NCBI GenBank assembly: GCA_030272155.1
Contig: CP126195.1
Span: 1,178,001 to 1,242,000, forward strand
DNA from: Tetradesmus obliquus
Lineage: Eukaryota; Chlorophyta; Chlorophyceae; Sphaeropleales; Scenedesmaceae
Direction of reading: 5' to 3'
Length of the DNA stretch: 64,000 bases
Shown: one piece after another, positions 1-8,136 of the stretch
How the letters are laid out: every line of letters starts with the position of its first letter
Numbering within the stretch: position 1 is the first letter of the stretch
The notes under the pieces: model-generated
Told to the model about the DNA's origin: nothing
What the model saw: the letters and a program-made list of their open reading frames with translations, nothing else
The model's database searches: none
Position numbers and translations under genes: made by a program

Positions 1-175
1 GCAAACAGTGCTACTGCCGCAGTAAAATCAGCTGCATACCCAGCAGCAGCAGGAGCACATCAGCCATAGCATAAAAAGGTAGGTGTGCACTTCAGGCACC
101 AAGTCCAGGAACAGCAACAGAAGGGATGCAGTGCAGGCTATGAACTGCTGCAGCAAAGGCTGGCATGCAATCACA

Positions 176-188
176 GTCTCAGTGAGAC
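176..188. other. Empty insertion site with 2 nt remnant
   Basis: The sequence is GTCTC-AG-TGAGAC. It equals the empty site seen at 8022-8032 with AG added at 181-182. AG is also the first dinucleotide of the 720 bp element at this site in long units, so it reads as an excision footprint. Confidence 0.6.
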
Positions 189-189
189 C

Positions 190-226
190 GGTCAAACTCC
201 ATGATGCCGCAGGCTGTTGTTTGACC
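190..226. repeat. 8 bp inverted repeat in transposase leader
   Basis: GGTCAAAC at 190-197 and its exact complement GTTTGACC at 219-226, with a 21 nt loop, 67-103 bases upstream of the transposase ATG. It occurs at the same offset in every unit. It could be a hairpin or a protein-binding site; function unknown. Confidence 0.5.
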
Positions 227-292
227 TGACCAGTTACTTCTGTTCACACTGCTGCTAGAAGCACAGCTAACATATCCATACGTTTTGGATTC

Positions 293-2496
293 ATGCCTGC
301 AGGGGGGCTGTCCATGGTGCGCAAGCACCCTTCAGGATGGAAGAGCAACCGCAGCACCACGGCCATGAGGGTGGCGGCGGTGGTGTGTGTGATAATGGCT
401 TTGACCACAGCTGACGAAAAGTTTACGCCCGCATATTATTACAGAGAGCAGTACCCTGACTACGCCAAGGAGGTACACGGGGACCTGAACCGGTTCTGCA
501 AACTTCATCACAAGAACTTCACAGCAAACGGCACAGTGGCTACACCCAAGCATGGCGGCAGGCCCTCAAATGTCCCACATGCTGTCGCCTTCCATGCCAG
601 CACAATATTCAAGGCTGGCAAGGTGGTAAAGGCCTACCCATCGGCAGATTCAAAGAGAAAGGTTGATGTGCACGTGTGGTGGACTTCAATCGAAGTCGCA
701 TGTCAGGAAAATGACACACTGCGCCAGCTGTGCACTGACTACAACATCACACCCAAGAGACTGCTGAAGTACATGAAATGGGCTGACCCCGACCTGGTGC
801 GCAGGAGAATAGATGTGAAGCTGGACTTGACAAAGATACAGAAACAAAGGCGAAAGGCAGCAGCTGCGGCGCTGTGGCAGAAGTACCAAAGTGACCCCGA
901 CATGCTGCAGCGCATATATTTCATTGATGAGTGCAAATTCTGGATGTCAGACCTGGCAGGCGGCTCCGTCAAGGTCTATTGTGATGCACACAATGAAAAC
1001 GTGCATGCTGTGCTGCCATGCAAATGGATGCGCAAGGGCAAGGACGCAGAGCCGGTCAAGTTGCACTTTGTCTGCGCCGTCAACGCTGTGCACGGGCCCG
1101 TCTACTGCAATTTTGTCACCGGCACAACAGACAACAAGGACCATGCTGGCAACCTCAATGTACCGTACATGGTGAGTGTGCGCTGCTACTGCGCAGGCGC
1201 CTGCCATCGAAAGACATGCCAGCCCTGCTGTACTGTGTAGTAACAGTCCCGCAGAGCTTTTTTTAGTGCTGTAGTGAAGCTGCAGCGCTGCCCGTCCTCT
1301 GCTGTGAACATAACAGCAGAGTAACTTGGTGACAGTACAATGACACCACCTGCAGCAGCAAGCTGGAAATTAATGTGCAAGGATTGGTGCATGTCACATC
1401 CGCGCGTGCTCACGCGCAGCACACTGACCCCTGGCTGCAGCCAGTTGTCATATGCTGCAGCGCAGAACTCAAAGTCGCGCTCCAGCACCTGCTGCCTGCT
1501 GCTGCTGTAATAACCCTTGTCATGACATGAGCCATCAGCTTGAATCAGCATGTTGTGCTGTGCATGGAGGAAATCAATCCGCCCATCCCACCAGTCCACT
1601 GCTACCTGAGCACACATACTGCTGCTGATGCCTAACCAATACAGCATGCACACCAGCTGCTCCTCGCTTGTGTGCATGTAGCCCATGCATGTGCCAACCA
1701 TATCAGCCAGCACACATGCACACATCTTGCACTGAAGCGCTGCTGCTGTGGCGACTGCACGCGGCGCGCAGAACTTGAAGTGCTGCACACCTGGCAAGCA
1801 GCCAGTCAAGCCCCAGAACAATCTCTGCCCCCTCATAGACTTGGTGATGTATCTGACCTTGTCTGCACTGAGCCTGATGTAGAAGCGTCCCATCGCATCC
1901 ATCCACACCGCTGCGTTGCGCTCCTGCGCTGCTAACAAGGCTGCGCGCTGCCAATCCGGCAATTCTTGCACCTGCAGTTGAAGGACAAACCAACCCAGCA
2001 GGCCAAGAGCATGACTCAGCTGGAGTTTGTTCACTGCATGATGGAGATCAGAGACATAGCCAACCAACAGCAGGCGCAGCGCGGCACTACGCCGCTGTAC
2101 ATCTTTGACAACCCAAGTGTTCACCTGGGGAAGGATGGCCTACAGATGTTGGTTGCAGGTGGCATCAATGAAGATCAACTGCTGCACATTGCACCCTACT
2201 CCCCAGATTTCAACAAGCCCATTGAACATGCATTTGGCAGCCTCAAAGCAGCCTTCCGCAACTACTTGTATAACAGCTGCCAGCTGGGTGGTGCTGATGT
2301 GAAGCCGCGAGACCTGCAGCACGGCCTGTACAACACCTTTATGAAGATCACAGCTGCATCTGTCATGGCTGATGTATTGAAGCTGCCAGATTTGTGGAAC
2401 ATGGTGCGCAGCCGCAAGAGGAGTCTTTGTGTGTGCCGAGACGGGAAGCAGCGCCGCGGCACTGCTGGCGACTACCCCAGGAAAGACCAGCGCTGA
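293..2496 (+). CDS. Tc1/mariner-like DDE transposase, two exons (copy 1)
   Basis: Predicted 465-residue transposase: exon 1 at 293-1171 (293 codons), intron 1172-1977, exon 2 at 1978-2496 (172 codons plus stop). The intron is phase 0, and splicing joins two halves of a DDE domain. Visible parts are a helix-turn-helix-like region at about residues 129-162; a first catalytic Asp at D212 in IYFIDECKFW; FVTGTT at 274-279; a second Asp at D337 in YIFDNPSVH; and the third acidic residue E376 in APYSPDFNKPIEH, the counterpart of the SPDLNPIE block of Tc1-type enzymes. Spacing between the last two is 38 residues, so DD38E rather than DD34E/D. The C-terminus is basic (RSRKR at 437-441), a possible nuclear localisation signal. 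By family it would cut at inverted-repeat ends and move DNA by cut and paste. The start is uncertain: an in-frame stop lies at 227-229, and a branch/acceptor-like pair (CTAAC 267-271, CTGCAG ending 302) spans the ATG, so an upstream exon may exist. Terminal repeats belonging to this gene were not found. Confidence 0.85.
1172..1977 (+). other. Spliceosomal-type intron of transposase copy 1
   Basis: The donor is G|GTGAGT at 1171-1177 and the acceptor is CTGCAG ending at 1977. A CTAAC branch-like motif lies at 1932-1936, about 41 nt before the acceptor AG. Length is 806 nt, phase 0. Without splicing the exon 1 frame stops at 1238-1240 and the protein lacks its second and third catalytic acids; with splicing the DDE domain is restored. 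The intron holds an antisense nuclease-like ORF (1186-1902). A perfect 12 bp palindrome lies at 1193-1204. The same intron recurs 879-1684 bases after each transposase ATG. Confidence 0.75.
1186..1902 (-). CDS. Antisense Vsr/DUF559-like (EDxHD) nuclease ORF in the intron (copy 1)
   Basis: A 238-codon minus-strand ORF with its first ATG at 1902-1900 and stop at 1188-1186, lying wholly inside the transposase intron. Features resemble the Vsr/DUF559/EDxHD branch of PD-(D/E)XK nucleases: an Asp in GRIDFLH (D110), a hydrophobic strand leading into IQADGSCHD (Q121, D123, H127, D128), an Arg-Asp pair (R142, D143) in the following helix, and a VLRV strand (161-164). Family members nick or cut DNA; some are homing endonucleases and others mismatch-repair nickases. 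The glutamate usually found in the N-terminal helix is not obvious (MRGQRLFWGL around residues 23-32 has Gln), so activity is uncertain. The frame stays open upstream of the ATG through the intron end and into the exon 2 antisense strand (to 2124), but has no earlier ATG; a second in-frame ATG three codons later has a better start context. No promoter was identified. The alternative is a chance open frame, but the domain-like motif order argues against that. Confidence 0.55.
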   Translation of the reverse strand: MDAMGRFYIRLSADKVRYITKSMRGQRLFWGLTGCLPGVQHFKFCAPRAVATAAALQCKMCACVLADMVGTCMGYMHTSEEQLVCMLYWLGISSSMCAQVAVDWWDGRIDFLHAQHNMLIQADGSCHDKGYYSSSRQQVLERDFEFCAAAYDNWLQPGVSVLRVSTRGCDMHQSLHINFQLAAAGGVIVLSPSYSAVMFTAEDGQRCSFTTALKKALRDCYYTVQQGWHVFRWQAPAQ

Positions 2497-2903
2497 GTCT
2501 GCTGTTGTGCTGCTGCATGGCATGTAGGGATTGTGGCTGTCAGCTGCATGCAAGATGGCTGGCCAGCAGTGCACAGGGTGTCACTCAGAGAGCCCTTGAG
2601 CTCACCTGTTTGAGGGCACCTGCGCTTGTCGCCGTCCTGCATGTTCGCACCGCCCGGGGCTTGGGAGGTGCTGGCACCATGCTGCTGTAGGGTGGTTACT
2701 TCCTGGTGTTCACCTGAGAGCGAGTGTGGGAACAAAATGGCATGTTCAGAAGCTTATTGTATGAGTAAACTACATGTGGATGTTGTGCTTTGGTGCTCAG
2801 ACTTGTCAGGAGCGGTTCCTGCTTCAAACGACTGCTGCAAGGCAGCAAGGCACTTGGTGGCCATTTCACATACAGGCATTTGCAGTCATGCTGAATTGCC
2901 GAA

Positions 2904-2908
2904 TGTAA
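2904..2908 (+). terminator. TGTAA polyadenylation-like signal
   Basis: TGTAA about 410 bases after the transposase stop. Green algae use TGTAA as the main poly(A) signal, so this could end the transposase transcript. A five-base motif alone is weak evidence. It recurs at the same offset in all units. Confidence 0.3.
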
Positions 2909-2929
2909 TGGTAAAATTCCTGTCATAAT

Positions 2930-3430
2930 TCAACTACGCTCGAAGCTCTTGAACATGGCTCCTGCTGCTGTCACTCGCGTTGGTTGTGACGACTGTTGGC
3001 CTGCCAAGCGATATGCACGGAGCCTGCAAGAAACCTTGCGGTCGATTAACTTTTAAATTTGACGATTGATTTAAGCATGGCTTGAGCCGAAATAAACTGC
3101 GATATGGTGAAGAACTTCAAGACGGAAAGGTGCCCTGAAACAAGCCTGCTCCGAGCCACACAGCTGCCACGCTGCCAACTTATCATCGTCGACACATTAT
3201 GCAACGTACCTTTGGTTGAAGCAGAAAACCAATCCTGACGGGCCCTCGCAAGCCCACGTTGCAGGTGAGCCTGACGGGTCAACACGGATGTCCAGAGCAC
3301 TGCAGCTCGATCGCGTTGCTGCAGCACCTACATACAATTTGTTTTGAACATTGAACGACGTTAAACACAGCGCAGTGCTGAAAGGCTTCGCCAAAAAATT
3401 AGGTGGCAGCAGTGAGGCACCTGCTGGCAC
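2930..3430 (-). pseudogene. Possible 5' remnant of a host gene (minus strand)
   Basis: Reading the minus strand, an open stretch ends in AAAG|GTACGT (exon end 3210, donor 3209-3204). After 185 nt a pyrimidine-rich TTTCTTGCAG acceptor ends at 3024. Downstream is an ATG at 2956-2954, but its frame stops after eight codons. The layout resembles a promoter, a leader intron and a start codon whose gene body has been lost. It is identical in each unit. Pure chance is possible in this CTG-rich sequence. Confidence 0.2.
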
Positions 3431-3522
3431 ATGCTGCTGCTGTCACGCCCACCAACAACTGCAGTTGAAAAACACATGCCACCGTGATTCACAGCACACA
3501 TAGCTGTAACGTTTCCTGTTGT

Positions 3523-3539
3523 CTGCTGCTGCTGCTGCT
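3523..3539. repeat. Short CTG microsatellite
   Basis: Five CTG triplets followed by CT, a local extreme of the CTG/CAG bias seen throughout the unit. No length change between units was noticed. Confidence 0.6.
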
Positions 3540-3744
3540 CCTGCCCAGGCAGATATCATATATCGCAAACAGTGCTACTGCCGCAGTAAAATCAGCTGCA
3601 TACCCAGCAGCAGCAGGAGCACATCAGCCATAGCATAAAAAGGTAGGTGTGCACTTCAGGCACCAAGTCCAGGAACAGCAACAGAAGGGATGCAGTGCAG
3701 GCTATGAACTGCTGCAGCAAAGGCTGGCATGCAATCACAGTCTC

Positions 3745-4464
3745 AGCTGGGTATGGTACAAACGTAGCATCTGCATTTTGCAACAAATCAACACAGCTTG
3801 CAAGCAGACAGCCATGCTGGCATAGCAACCTGCTGTATGTGGCAGGCACAGTAAGGCACAGCTGCCAGTGCTGCTGCTTTGGTTTGCTTGCATCCCAACT
3901 GCACAGCAGGGCCCCCACCTGCCAGCAGCAGCAGCTTCAAACTGCTAGTAATTTTGAGCTCCAGAATTCGCCTTGATCACACAAGAAGGATGTTTGCAGG
4001 AAACTGTGTAGAATACTAGTCCTCAACAAACTCTGTGCAGCCACACTAGCTGCACGCGCGCAGCAGCTGCCGGTGGGCCTGAAGCGGTGTTGCGCACTAT
4101 GTAACAGATATGACAGTTGAAACTGTATGTGCAGCGCACAGCGCCAAGCAGCAGAGCGCAACAGCAGCGGCAGGGCACTTGGCACACCAGAACTGCAGTG
4201 CCTGATCAGCCAGCAAGGGAAGCCCAGAAGTATTACATTACACATCAAAACATGTTGCAGGCAGCAGCACCCACAGCAACACTCTACAGCGCAAGTTAAC
4301 ATATGTAACAGTCGAGTCGGGGCACTTCAGGGCAACGTGTTTTTAGCTCTTTTCTTGCAGCACACTGTGCCACTGCTAACAGCTCAAATTGATTTAGATT
4401 CGTCGTTGAAAGCTTGACATTTATATGTAGGCCACTTGTTCGCTACGTTTGTACCATGCCCAGC
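3745..4464. mobile_element. 720 bp MITE-like element with inverted-repeat ends (copy 1)
   Basis: This 720 bp segment is present in long units and absent from short ones. Its ends are inverted repeats: bases 3740-3768, starting GTCTCAGCTGGG, match the complement of 4442-4470 over 29 bp with one mismatch; 24 of these lie within the segment on the left and 23 on the right, and the outer GTCTC/GAGAC pair stays behind in the empty site. No clear target duplication is seen; the empty site GTCTCTGAGAC is itself a near-perfect palindrome. No transposase is encoded, so it would be non-autonomous. It contains two TGTAA motifs (one at 4304-4308) and a strong plus-strand acceptor-like tract (TTTTCTTGCAG ending near 4350). 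It sits 111 bp upstream of the next transposase ATG and may separate that gene from its promoter. The alternative reading, deletion between inverted repeats, would give similar short units. Confidence 0.65.
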
Positions 4465-4574
4465 TGAGACCGGTCAAACTCCATGATGCCGCAGGCTGTT
4501 GTTTGACCTGACCAGTTACTTCTGTTCACACTGCTGCTAGAAGCACAGCTAACATATCCATACGTTTTGGATTC

Positions 4575-6778
4575 ATGCCTGCAGGGGGGCTGTCCATGGT
4601 GCGCAAGCACCCTTCAGGATGGAAGAGCAACCGCAGCACCACGGCCATGAGGGTGGCGGCGGTGGTGTGTGTGATAATGGCTTTGACCACAGCTGACGAA
4701 AAGTTTACGCCCGCATATTATTACAGAGAGCAGTACCCTGACTACGCCAAGGAGGTACACGGGGACCTGAACCGGTTCTGCAAACTTCATCACAAGAACT
4801 TCACAGCAAACGGCACAGTGGCTACACCCAAGCATGGCGGCAGGCCCTCAAATGTCCCACATGCTGTCGCCTTCCATGCCAGCACAATATTCAAGGCTGG
4901 CAAGGTGGTAAAGGCCTACCCATCGGCAGATTCAAAGAGAAAGGTTGATGTGCACGTGTGGTGGACTTCAATCGAAGTCGCATGTCAGGAAAATGACACA
5001 CTGCGCCAGCTGTGCACTGACTACAACATCACACCCAAGAGACTGCTGAAGTACATGAAATGGGCTGACCCCGACCTGGTGCGCAGGAGAATAGATGTGA
5101 AGCTGGACTTGACAAAGATACAGAAACAAAGGCGAAAGGCAGCAGCTGCGGCGCTGTGGCAGAAGTACCAAAGTGACCCCGACATGCTGCAGCGCATATA
5201 TTTCATTGATGAGTGCAAATTCTGGATGTCAGACCTGGCAGGCGGCTCCGTCAAGGTCTATTGTGATGCACACAATGAAAACGTGCATGCTGTGCTGCCA
5301 TGCAAATGGATGCGCAAGGGCAAGGACGCAGAGCCGGTCAAGTTGCACTTTGTCTGCGCCGTCAACGCTGTGCACGGGCCCGTCTACTGCAATTTTGTCA
5401 CCGGCACAACAGACAACAAGGACCATGCTGGCAACCTCAATGTACCGTACATGGTGAGTGTGCGCTGCTACTGCGCAGGCGCCTGCCATCGAAAGACATG
5501 CCAGCCCTGCTGTACTGTGTAGTAACAGTCCCGCAGAGCTTTTTTTAGTGCTGTAGTGAAGCTGCAGCGCTGCCCGTCCTCTGCTGTGAACATAACAGCA
5601 GAGTAACTTGGTGACAGTACAATGACACCACCTGCAGCAGCAAGCTGGAAATTAATGTGCAAGGATTGGTGCATGTCACATCCGCGCGTGCTCACGCGCA
5701 GCACACTGACCCCTGGCTGCAGCCAGTTGTCATATGCTGCAGCGCAGAACTCAAAGTCGCGCTCCAGCACCTGCTGCCTGCTGCTGCTGTAATAACCCTT
5801 GTCATGACATGAGCCATCAGCTTGAATCAGCATGTTGTGCTGTGCATGGAGGAAATCAATCCGCCCATCCCACCAGTCCACTGCTACCTGAGCACACATA
5901 CTGCTGCTGATGCCTAACCAATACAGCATGCACACCAGCTGCTCCTCGCTTGTGTGCATGTAGCCCATGCATGTGCCAACCATATCAGCCAGCACACATG
6001 CACACATCTTGCACTGAAGCGCTGCTGCTGTGGCGACTGCACGCGGCGCGCAGAACTTGAAGTGCTGCACACCTGGCAAGCAGCCAGTCAAGCCCCAGAA
6101 CAATCTCTGCCCCCTCATAGACTTGGTGATGTATCTGACCTTGTCTGCACTGAGCCTGATGTAGAAGCGTCCCATCGCATCCATCCACACCGCTGCGTTG
6201 CGCTCCTGCGCTGCTAACAAGGCTGCGCGCTGCCAATCCGGCAATTCTTGCACCTGCAGTTGAAGGACAAACCAACCCAGCAGGCCAAGAGCATGACTCA
6301 GCTGGAGTTTGTTCACTGCATGATGGAGATCAGAGACATAGCCAACCAACAGCAGGCGCAGCGCGGCACTACGCCGCTGTACATCTTTGACAACCCAAGT
6401 GTTCACCTGGGGAAGGATGGCCTACAGATGTTGGTTGCAGGTGGCATCAATGAAGATCAACTGCTGCACATTGCACCCTACTCCCCAGATTTCAACAAGC
6501 CCATTGAACATGCATTTGGCAGCCTCAAAGCAGCCTTCCGCAACTACTTGTATAACAGCTGCCAGCTGGGTGGTGCTGATGTGAAGCCGCGAGACCTGCA
6601 GCACGGCCTGTACAACACCTTTATGAAGATCACAGCTGCATCTGTCATGGCTGATGTATTGAAGCTGCCAGATTTGTGGAACATGGTGCGCAGCCGCAAG
6701 AGGAGTCTTTGTGTGTGCCGAGACGGGAAGCAGCGCCGCGGCACTGCTGGCGACTACCCCAGGAAAGACCAGCGCTGA
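4575..6778 (+). CDS. DDE transposase (copy 2)
   Basis: Exons 4575-5453 and 6260-6778, intron 5454-6259. Same 465-residue product as copy 1. The 720 bp element lies directly upstream, ending at 4464. Confidence 0.85.
5468..6184 (-). CDS. Antisense EDxHD-like nuclease ORF (copy 2)
   Basis: 238 codons, ATG at 6184-6182, nested in intron 5454-6259 of transposase copy 2. Same motifs as copy 1 with no internal stops. Confidence 0.55.
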   Translation of the reverse strand: MDAMGRFYIRLSADKVRYITKSMRGQRLFWGLTGCLPGVQHFKFCAPRAVATAAALQCKMCACVLADMVGTCMGYMHTSEEQLVCMLYWLGISSSMCAQVAVDWWDGRIDFLHAQHNMLIQADGSCHDKGYYSSSRQQVLERDFEFCAAAYDNWLQPGVSVLRVSTRGCDMHQSLHINFQLAAAGGVIVLSPSYSAVMFTAEDGQRCSFTTALKKALRDCYYTVQQGWHVFRWQAPAQ

Positions 6779-8021
6779 GTCTGCTGTTGTGCTGCTGCAT
6801 GGCATGTAGGGATTGTGGCTGTCAGCTGCATGCAAGATGGCTGGCCAGCAGTGCACAGGGTGTCACTCAGAGAGCCCTTGAGCTCACCTGTTTGAGGGCA
6901 CCTGCGCTTGTCGCCGTCCTGCATGTTCGCACCGCCCGGGGCTTGGGAGGTGCTGGCACCATGCTGCTGTAGGGTGGTTACTTCCTGGTGTTCACCTGAG
7001 AGCGAGTGTGGGAACAAAATGGCATGTTCAGAAGCTTATTGTATGAGTAAACTACATGTGGATGTTGTGCTTTGGTGCTCAGACTTGTCAGGAGCGGTTC
7101 CTGCTTCAAACGACTGCTGCAAGGCAGCAAGGCACTTGGTGGCCATTTCACATACAGGCATTTGCAGTCATGCTGAATTGCCGAATGTAATGGTAAAATT
7201 CCTGTCATAATTCAACTACGCTCGAAGCTCTTGAACATGGCTCCTGCTGCTGTCACTCGCGTTGGTTGTGACGACTGTTGGCCTGCCAAGCGATATGCAC
7301 GGAGCCTGCAAGAAACCTTGCGGTCGATTAACTTTTAAATTTGACGATTGATTTAAGCATGGCTTGAGCCGAAATAAACTGCGATATGGTGAAGAACTTC
7401 AAGACGGAAAGGTGCCCTGAAACAAGCCTGCTCCGAGCCACACAGCTGCCACGCTGCCAACTTATCATCGTCGACACATTATGCAACGTACCTTTGGTTG
7501 AAGCAGAAAACCAATCCTGACGGGCCCTCGCAAGCCCACGTTGCAGGTGAGCCTGACGGGTCAACACGGATGTCCAGAGCACTGCAGCTCGATCGCGTTG
7601 CTGCAGCACCTACATACAATTTGTTTTGAACATTGAACGACGTTAAACACAGCGCAGTGCTGAAAGGCTTCGCCAAAAAATTAGGTGGCAGCAGTGAGGC
7701 ACCTGCTGGCACATGCTGCTGCTGTCACGCCCACCAACAACTGCAGTTGAAAAACACATGCCACCGTGATTCACAGCACACATAGCTGTAACGTTTCCTG
7801 TTGTCTGCTGCTGCTGCTGCTCCTGCCCAGGCAGATATCATATATCGCAAACAGTGCTACTGCCGCAGTAAAATCAGCTGCATACCCAGCAGCAGCAGGA
7901 GCACATCAGCCATAGCATAAAAAGGTAGGTGTGCACTTCAGGCACCAAGTCCAGGAACAGCAACAGAAGGGATGCAGTGCAGGCTATGAACTGCTGCAGC
8001 AAAGGCTGGCATGCAATCACA

Positions 8022-8032
8022 GTCTCTGAGAC
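8022..8032. other. Clean empty insertion site
   Basis: GTCTCTGAGAC where long units carry the 720 bp element between GTCTC and TGAGAC. The site is an 11 bp palindrome around a central T. Confidence 0.7.
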
Positions 8033-8136
8033 CGGTCAAACTCCATGATGCCGCAGGCTGTTGTTTGACCTGACCAGTTACTTCTGTTCACACTGCTGCT
8101 AGAAGCACAGCTAACATATCCATACGTTTTGGATTC

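Follow-up and report, generated by a model that had tools for sequence, protein, structure and literature searches.

A tandem array of predicted transposase genes with an antisense, nuclease-like reading frame in a likely spliceosomal intron

Composite transposons and nuclease-bearing introns

The KolobokP elements described by Kojima and Bao (2022, PMC9587614) are composite transposons of animals, in which a DDE transposase is accompanied by a His-Me finger homing-type nuclease encoded on the complementary strand. As described there, the LTDRs of these elements are ≈450 or 660 bp long, have TIRs of their own, stand at both termini of the element within a target duplication of 3–5 bp, and alternate with internal regions in multimers of the form (LTDR-INT)n. 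Junctions at which two internal regions meet (INT-INT) carry microdeletions of 3–4 bp. The authors put forward unequal crossover triggered by the nuclease as a proposal not based on experiment, and they note that such dual replication, which would combine transposition with nuclease-induced unequal exchange, is still to be examined experimentally (PMC9587614). In that description the plan is reported from animals and from one superfamily.

Nuclease genes within spliceosomal introns have been described in mirusviruses, whose spliceosomal homing introns were named shintrons in 2025 (Medvedeva et al. 2025, PMC12768974). Among the 334 endonuclease genes counted in these introns, 16 are VSR-like, and the types encoded are HNH, GIY-YIG, VSR-like and PD-(D/E)XK; the authors state that an intron–endonuclease association of that kind was previously unobserved. 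Cellular spliceosomal introns moved by a nuclease of their own were absent among the matches listed in our literature search.

The DNA analyzed here, a stretch of 64000 nt referred to below as the window, comes from the alga Tetradesmus obliquus. As in KolobokP, a DDE transposase lies on one strand and a small putative nuclease on the complementary strand. The parts are different, however: the transposase is IS630/Tc1-like by its DDE_3 and IS630 matches, not a Kolobok transposase; the putative nuclease is DUF559/Vsr-like (DUF559 alone appearing in Pfam scans), whereas that described for KolobokP is a His-Me finger protein; and its gene lies inside the transposase intron, whereas that of KolobokP lies downstream (PMC9587614). 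Because of these differences the element is not a KolobokP, although by analogy it may work like one. KolobokP was described from animals, whereas the host here is an alga and the array is known from its interior alone. KolobokE, in the same description, is likewise a DNA transposon with a PD-(D/E)XK accessory nuclease, but a lambda-exonuclease-like one.

With the shintrons the locus shares canonical spliceosomal signals, no group I/II signature (here by sequence only), and an intron holding an endonuclease-like gene, VSR-like genes being among the reported shintron types and the resemblance here being to DUF559 at motif level. It differs in that the intron interrupts a tandemly repeated transposase gene and the reading frame is antisense, with neither an intron-less allele nor a target preference known. 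The nuclear L2066 group I introns (PMC9548176) likewise have an antisense nuclease gene within a nuclear intron, but are described as self-splicing and encode a His-Cys nuclease, whereas the intron here is of spliceosomal type. An earlier note on this DNA had not recognized the combination as a described system. The homing-type spliceosomal intron that it considered has a precedent in the shintrons, and KolobokP went unmentioned there.

The transposase gene and its intron

The transposase gene was modeled as two exons on the forward strand. Exon 1 (293–1171) comprises 293 codons and includes the first catalytic aspartate at residue 212 (IDEC), while exon 2 (1978–2496, stop codon at 2494–2496) includes DNPSVH and SPDFNKPIEHAF, which hold the second D and the E. 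The spliced product (293–1171 joined to 1978–2496) has 465 residues and a DD-E triad of D212, D337 and E376. The exons are separated by an intron of 806 nt in phase 0 (1172–1977, forward strand), with the donor GTGAGT at 1172–1177, a branch-like CTAAC at 1932–1936 whose A sits 42 nt from the intron end, and the acceptor CACCTGCAG ending at 1977. The unspliced frame reaches a stop at 1240, upstream of the two later residues of the triad (D and E). The earlier note had proposed this intron, from GTGAGT to CTGCAG and splitting the DDE transposase, and its coordinates proved right.

No Rfam family reached its gathering threshold in positions 1–8100, so that no group I or group II intron was recognized and a self-splicing intron was rejected. 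With GTGAGT, CTAAC and CACCTGCAG in place and no Rfam family found, splicing of 1172–1977 is likely, judging from these signals. No TIR or flanking repeat, as a sign of an introner, was present at the intron ends (1172/1977) among the matches listed.

The gene product appears to be an IS630/Tc1-like DDE transposase, by profile matches that lie below the curated cut-offs. Exon 2 matched DDE_3 with E 5.7e-5 and the IS630 profile with E 2e-4, both under the curated cut-off. Splicing added little to the DDE_3 score (23.4 bits before and 24.1 after, against a cut-off of 28.6), and the IS630 profile gave 20.9 bits against a cut-off of 100. Our own IS630 model, built from 5 plasmid IS630 proteins of 596 matching records, gave 31.9 bits for the region DN..H...SPD.N.PIE and just −0.4 bits for the stretch holding the first D. 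The relatives of exon 2 were distant bacterial IS630 proteins, in 596 plasmid records, with ≈26–41% identity among the 20 matches listed; no close relative of the transposase was found in viral contigs, and none of exon 1 in phages.

The usual polyadenylation signal of green algae, TGTAA, occurs at 2904, 408 nt past the transposase stop codon. On the minus strand, the nearest TGTAA beyond the stop of the antisense frame described below is far off, at 439. The ≈1 kb past the transposase (2497–3560) has a positive codon score in no frame. The window has a G+C content of 53% and is rich in CAG/CTG, and the acceptor reads TGCAG, features that give the impression of a green alga.

The antisense reading frame and its nuclease-like core

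On the minus strand, an open reading frame (ORF) of 238 codons (1186–1902) fills 89% of the intron. It sits between the donor and the branch-like site, with 14 nt to spare next to the donor and 75 nt, which include the branch-like site and the acceptor, at the other end, and it is present in 16 identical copies within the 64-kb window. That it nearly fills the intron had been stated earlier and was borne out, as was the observation that the frame runs open beyond the intron, up to 2124. The first in-frame ATG is that at 1902, and an extension of the protein upstream of it was rejected because no in-frame ATG occurs there; the codon score of that part (0.0–0.25) does not settle the extension.

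We considered the possibility that the intron is an ordinary long one, that its antisense ORF arose by chance or has decayed, and that the DUF559-like motif is coincidental. The length of the ORF gives some room to this explanation. Stop-free runs of at least 239 codons, counted in six frames, occurred in 21 of 5000 dinucleotide shuffles, in 39 of 5000 Markov-2 sequences generated from the non-coding DNA of the unit, and in 184 of 5000 sequences simulated from the intron itself. Reached in 0.4–3.7% of the simulations, the length by itself is thus only modestly unusual. Codon usage speaks against a chance frame: the log-odds score of the ORF relative to the transposase exons was 0.253, compared to a mean of 0.069 (sd 0.062, n = 459) for simulated open frames, and a score as high was found in none of the 459 open frames simulated from the intron's own statistics and in none of 41 simulated from non-coding DNA. 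Codon scores were highest (0.49–0.66) in windows covering the nuclease-like core and the stretch directly upstream. Three-base periodicity was matched by 14 of the 459 and 2 of the 41 simulated frames. By these statistics the ORF looks coding-like, with codon usage as the stronger evidence and length as the weaker.

The nuclease-like core comprises residues 109–167 (1402–1578, minus strand; IDF..IQADGSCH..VLRV), across which the product shares with the DUF559/Vsr-like PD-(D/E)XK proteins the order and spacing of D..ExDGxxH..R..VLR. The Pfam match to DUF559 (PF04480) scored 13.8 bits (E 0.053), below the gathering cut-off of 20.6 bits. Another antisense frame, taken as a decoy, matched the unrelated SufE equally well (E 0.049), so that the Pfam match taken alone is at chance level, which counts toward a fortuitous frame. 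Our own DUF559 model, built from 28 of 30 bacterial loci (L109 and L110 were omitted as partial), gave 13.6 bits for the ORF; the best of 20000 shuffles gave 8.2, and none of 16000 simulated introns, each searched in six frames, reached 13.6 (best 13.1). Read from stop to stop like the simulations, the ORF scored 12.8 bits, and this like-for-like score was reached by 1 of the 16000 simulated introns, which argues against coincidence. Of 73 stop-free segments of the unit, no other exceeded 0.3 bits with this model.

The earlier note had pointed to profile comparison and structure prediction as ways to check for a PD-(D/E)XK nuclease. With hhalign, the ORF matched 26 DUF559 domains over 45 columns with 36% identity (P 0.0022, probability 13%); 1 of 1391 shuffles did as well, and a further 100 all scored lower. 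AlphaFold, run on the single sequence, gave a pLDDT of 34.5, which is uninformative and too poor for a fold search. Among the profile blocks tested, columns 44–64 stood out, with 6 of 20000 shuffles as good. Ungapped blocks that included the N-terminal helix were not significant (2781, 2210 and 5332 of 20000 shuffles as good for columns 14–30, 14–64 and 9–64, respectively); T78 and E81 of the product fall at the ungapped spacing of the DUF559 helix residues.

The DUF559 core residues were defined from an alignment (A1) of 26 of the 30 DUF559 loci, with L109, L110, L091 and L111 omitted; a second alignment (A2) held 19 loci and the window sequence. In A1, D46, E57, D59 and G60 (L082 numbering) are invariant and H63 is nearly so. 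The ORF product has D110, D123, G124 and H127 at DUF559 spacing, but carries Q121 in place of the invariant E57, does not keep the invariant D72, and has an insertion of ≈12 residues before VLR. Its active site is perhaps altered. Of the Vsr/DUF559 nuclease signature that had been read here earlier, the motif order is present, but the family E is Q121, and the “RD”, which lies in ERDFE, does not supply the R that aligns with the family's invariant R. The EDxHD homing endonucleases, such as I-Bth0305I (PMC3943268), which the earlier note grouped with these nucleases, are marked by an EDxHD active site and fold. The DUF559/Vsr flavor of the ORF is supported by sequence statistics and motif order, with no profile match passing a curated threshold, and it is in this weaker form that the proposed nuclease identity stands. 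We regard the product as probably a DUF559/Vsr-like protein, not as a proven member of the family.

Vsr (PF03852) and MTES_1575 were rejected as the nearest nuclease family, since our own models of them gave no match. The Vsr model (26 of 30 loci; L140 and L141 absent, 2 lost for short frames) scored the ORF at 0.1 bits, a model with which shuffles reach 11.0, and the MTES_1575 model (15 of 30 loci; L150, one of the 15, scored poorly with this model and may have been read wrongly close to where its contig ends) left it without a match. Sequence searches of PHROGs, NCBIfam, PADLOC and PDB returned nothing under E 0.3, and no relatives of the ORF were found in viral contigs, genome contigs, phages and plasmids, all of them non-eukaryotic collections. 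The lack of homologues in these collections and the Q in place of E fit a chance frame; weighed with the codon usage and the like-for-like model score, that explanation appears somewhat unlikely.

The replacement by Q121 would also suit a nuclease fold without cutting activity, serving as a nucleic-acid-binding regulator like the Vsr-like RAP domain of FASTKD4. The RAP/FAST cavity of that protein is described as Vsr-like, yet mutation of a candidate catalytic residue left MT-ND3 stability unaltered (PMC11879112). In the ORF product, however, D110, D123 and H127 are kept. Pfam includes a RAP model, and RAP was absent from the Pfam matches of the ORF up to E 10, subject to the HMMER filters. A non-cutting fold is in our view quite improbable.

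The main functional rival of the composite transposon proposed below is a shintron-like spliceosomal homing intron, with which it is compatible. In this case the intron and its antisense nuclease would form a mobile unit, copying itself into intron-less transposase genes by cutting the insertion site. The fit of the ORF between the donor and the branch/acceptor region is consistent with such a unit, as are the VSR-like genes of the mirusvirus introns and the antisense homing endonuclease genes of nuclear group I introns, for which expression is reported in a myxomycete (PMC9548176). The shintron paper, however, makes no mention of an antisense layout in its main text and so offers no antisense precedent (PMC12768974). 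The exon-junction 16-mer had 12 matches in viral contigs, none of them encoding a relative, and no intron-less allele was seen. A perfect palindrome with a single base at its center, ATGTACcGTACAT (1158–1170), stops one base short of the insertion site, yet it is a weak hint of a nuclease site, since it is one of 4 palindromes in the 1398-nt coding sequence with arms of at least 6 and a spacer of at most 6. We consider homing unlikely; if the intron does home, spliceosomal introns that move by means of a nuclease of their own, so far named only in mirusviruses, would have a cellular example.

The tandem array and the 713-bp insert

The whole window (1–64000) is one array of 16 head-to-tail units. 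Eleven units are 4282 bp long and mutually identical, three are 3562 bp, one is 3564 bp, and one is truncated by the end of the window. In alignment with the longest unit, they show zero mismatches and differ solely in the presence (12/16) or absence (4/16) of an insert, without which the internal region is ≈3.56 kb. Complete identity outside the insert implies a very recent amplification of multiple units or an assembly effect. From 1 to 27096, units of 3562/3564 and 4282 bp alternate to form a 7844-bp higher-order repeat, and from 27097 to 64000 the units are uniformly 4282 bp.

The insert (3749–4461, 713 bp) runs from GGGTATGG to CCATGCCC, with GGG at its start, CCC at its end, and AGCT on both sides as a flanking direct repeat. 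These boundaries were picked by eye; a scan for perfect TIRs of at least 6 gave three others, flanked by AT (701 bp), TA (693 bp) and GTAC (691 bp). The ends are embedded in an inverted repeat with arms of 29 nt (3740–3768 and 4442–4470, forward strand) that are 97% complementary. A search of viral contigs for the TIR patterns of the insert led nowhere.

The four units that lack the insert have two types of junction between internal regions. One reads GTCTCAGTGAGAC (≈175–187) and occurs in one unit; the three others share GTCTCTGAGAC. Excision that kept one AGCT would remove 717 bp, whereas the junctions lack 718 bp (GTCTCAGTGAGAC) and 720 bp (GTCTCTGAGAC), having lost 1 and 3 bases beyond it. 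The three GTCTCTGAGAC junctions lie within the 7844-bp higher-order repeat and may therefore represent one event, which leaves a minimum of two independent losses.

This organization resembles KolobokP as described (PMC9587614), with a TIR-bounded repeat between internal regions in head-to-tail multimers (713 bp here, ≈450 or 660 bp there), and with internal regions that abut, with small deletions, where the repeat is missing. If bases are counted as for KolobokP, with two complete internal-region tips (18 nt) as the reference, the junctions here lack 5 and 7 bases, more than the 3–4 reported there.

Our preferred explanation, held tentatively, is a convergent composite two-protein transposon whose arraying is promoted by the putative nuclease. 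The window would then lie inside a multimer formed by a composite DNA transposon, and each ≈3.56 kb internal region would encode an IS630/Tc1-like transposase and, antisense within its spliceosomal intron, a DUF559/Vsr-like putative nuclease. The 713-bp TIR-bounded repeat found between most internal regions would take the role of the KolobokP LTDR and could be lost by excision. Spliced sense mRNA would give the transposase, and an antisense transcript the nuclease. Units would be added when a cut by this nuclease, in or beside the terminal repeat, is repaired from a neighboring copy. Such an element would have two ways to spread, transposition and nuclease-induced unequal exchange, and the array would be the nuclease's work. 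A two-protein transposon with a nuclease that aids array formation had also been put forward in the earlier note. Since the array follows KolobokP in its composite plan, this option gains more from its surroundings, with the role of the nuclease still conjectural.

The same features could have other origins. With no end of the array inside the 64-kb window, the 713-bp insert could be an unrelated MITE, and the array may have grown as a satellite does, by plain amplification, or may be an artifact of assembly. A more elaborate version of the composite transposon, in which a unicellular eukaryote hosts an IS630/Tc1-class element that arrived independently at the KolobokP way of life (terminal direct repeats, multimers, and a transposase with a homing-type nuclease) and keeps its antisense nuclease in an intron that may itself home, strikes us as rather doubtful; it may amount to a cellular shintron within a self-arraying transposon. 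If the composite transposon is real, it would be a second, unrelated build of the KolobokP plan; the plan would then be a recurrent strategy, no longer a curiosity, and would help to explain transposon-derived arrays.

Elements of the IS630/Tc1-mariner class duplicate a TA target site. The 29-nt arms have TA flanks only when read outward, as TA|CGTTTGTACC...GGTACAAACG|TA, and in this orientation would suit the Tc1/IS630 ends of an element that bears the transposase; read inward, the flanking repeat is AGCT. The outward reading was ranked below that of an insert, because excision of the insert accounts better for the two junctions that lack it.
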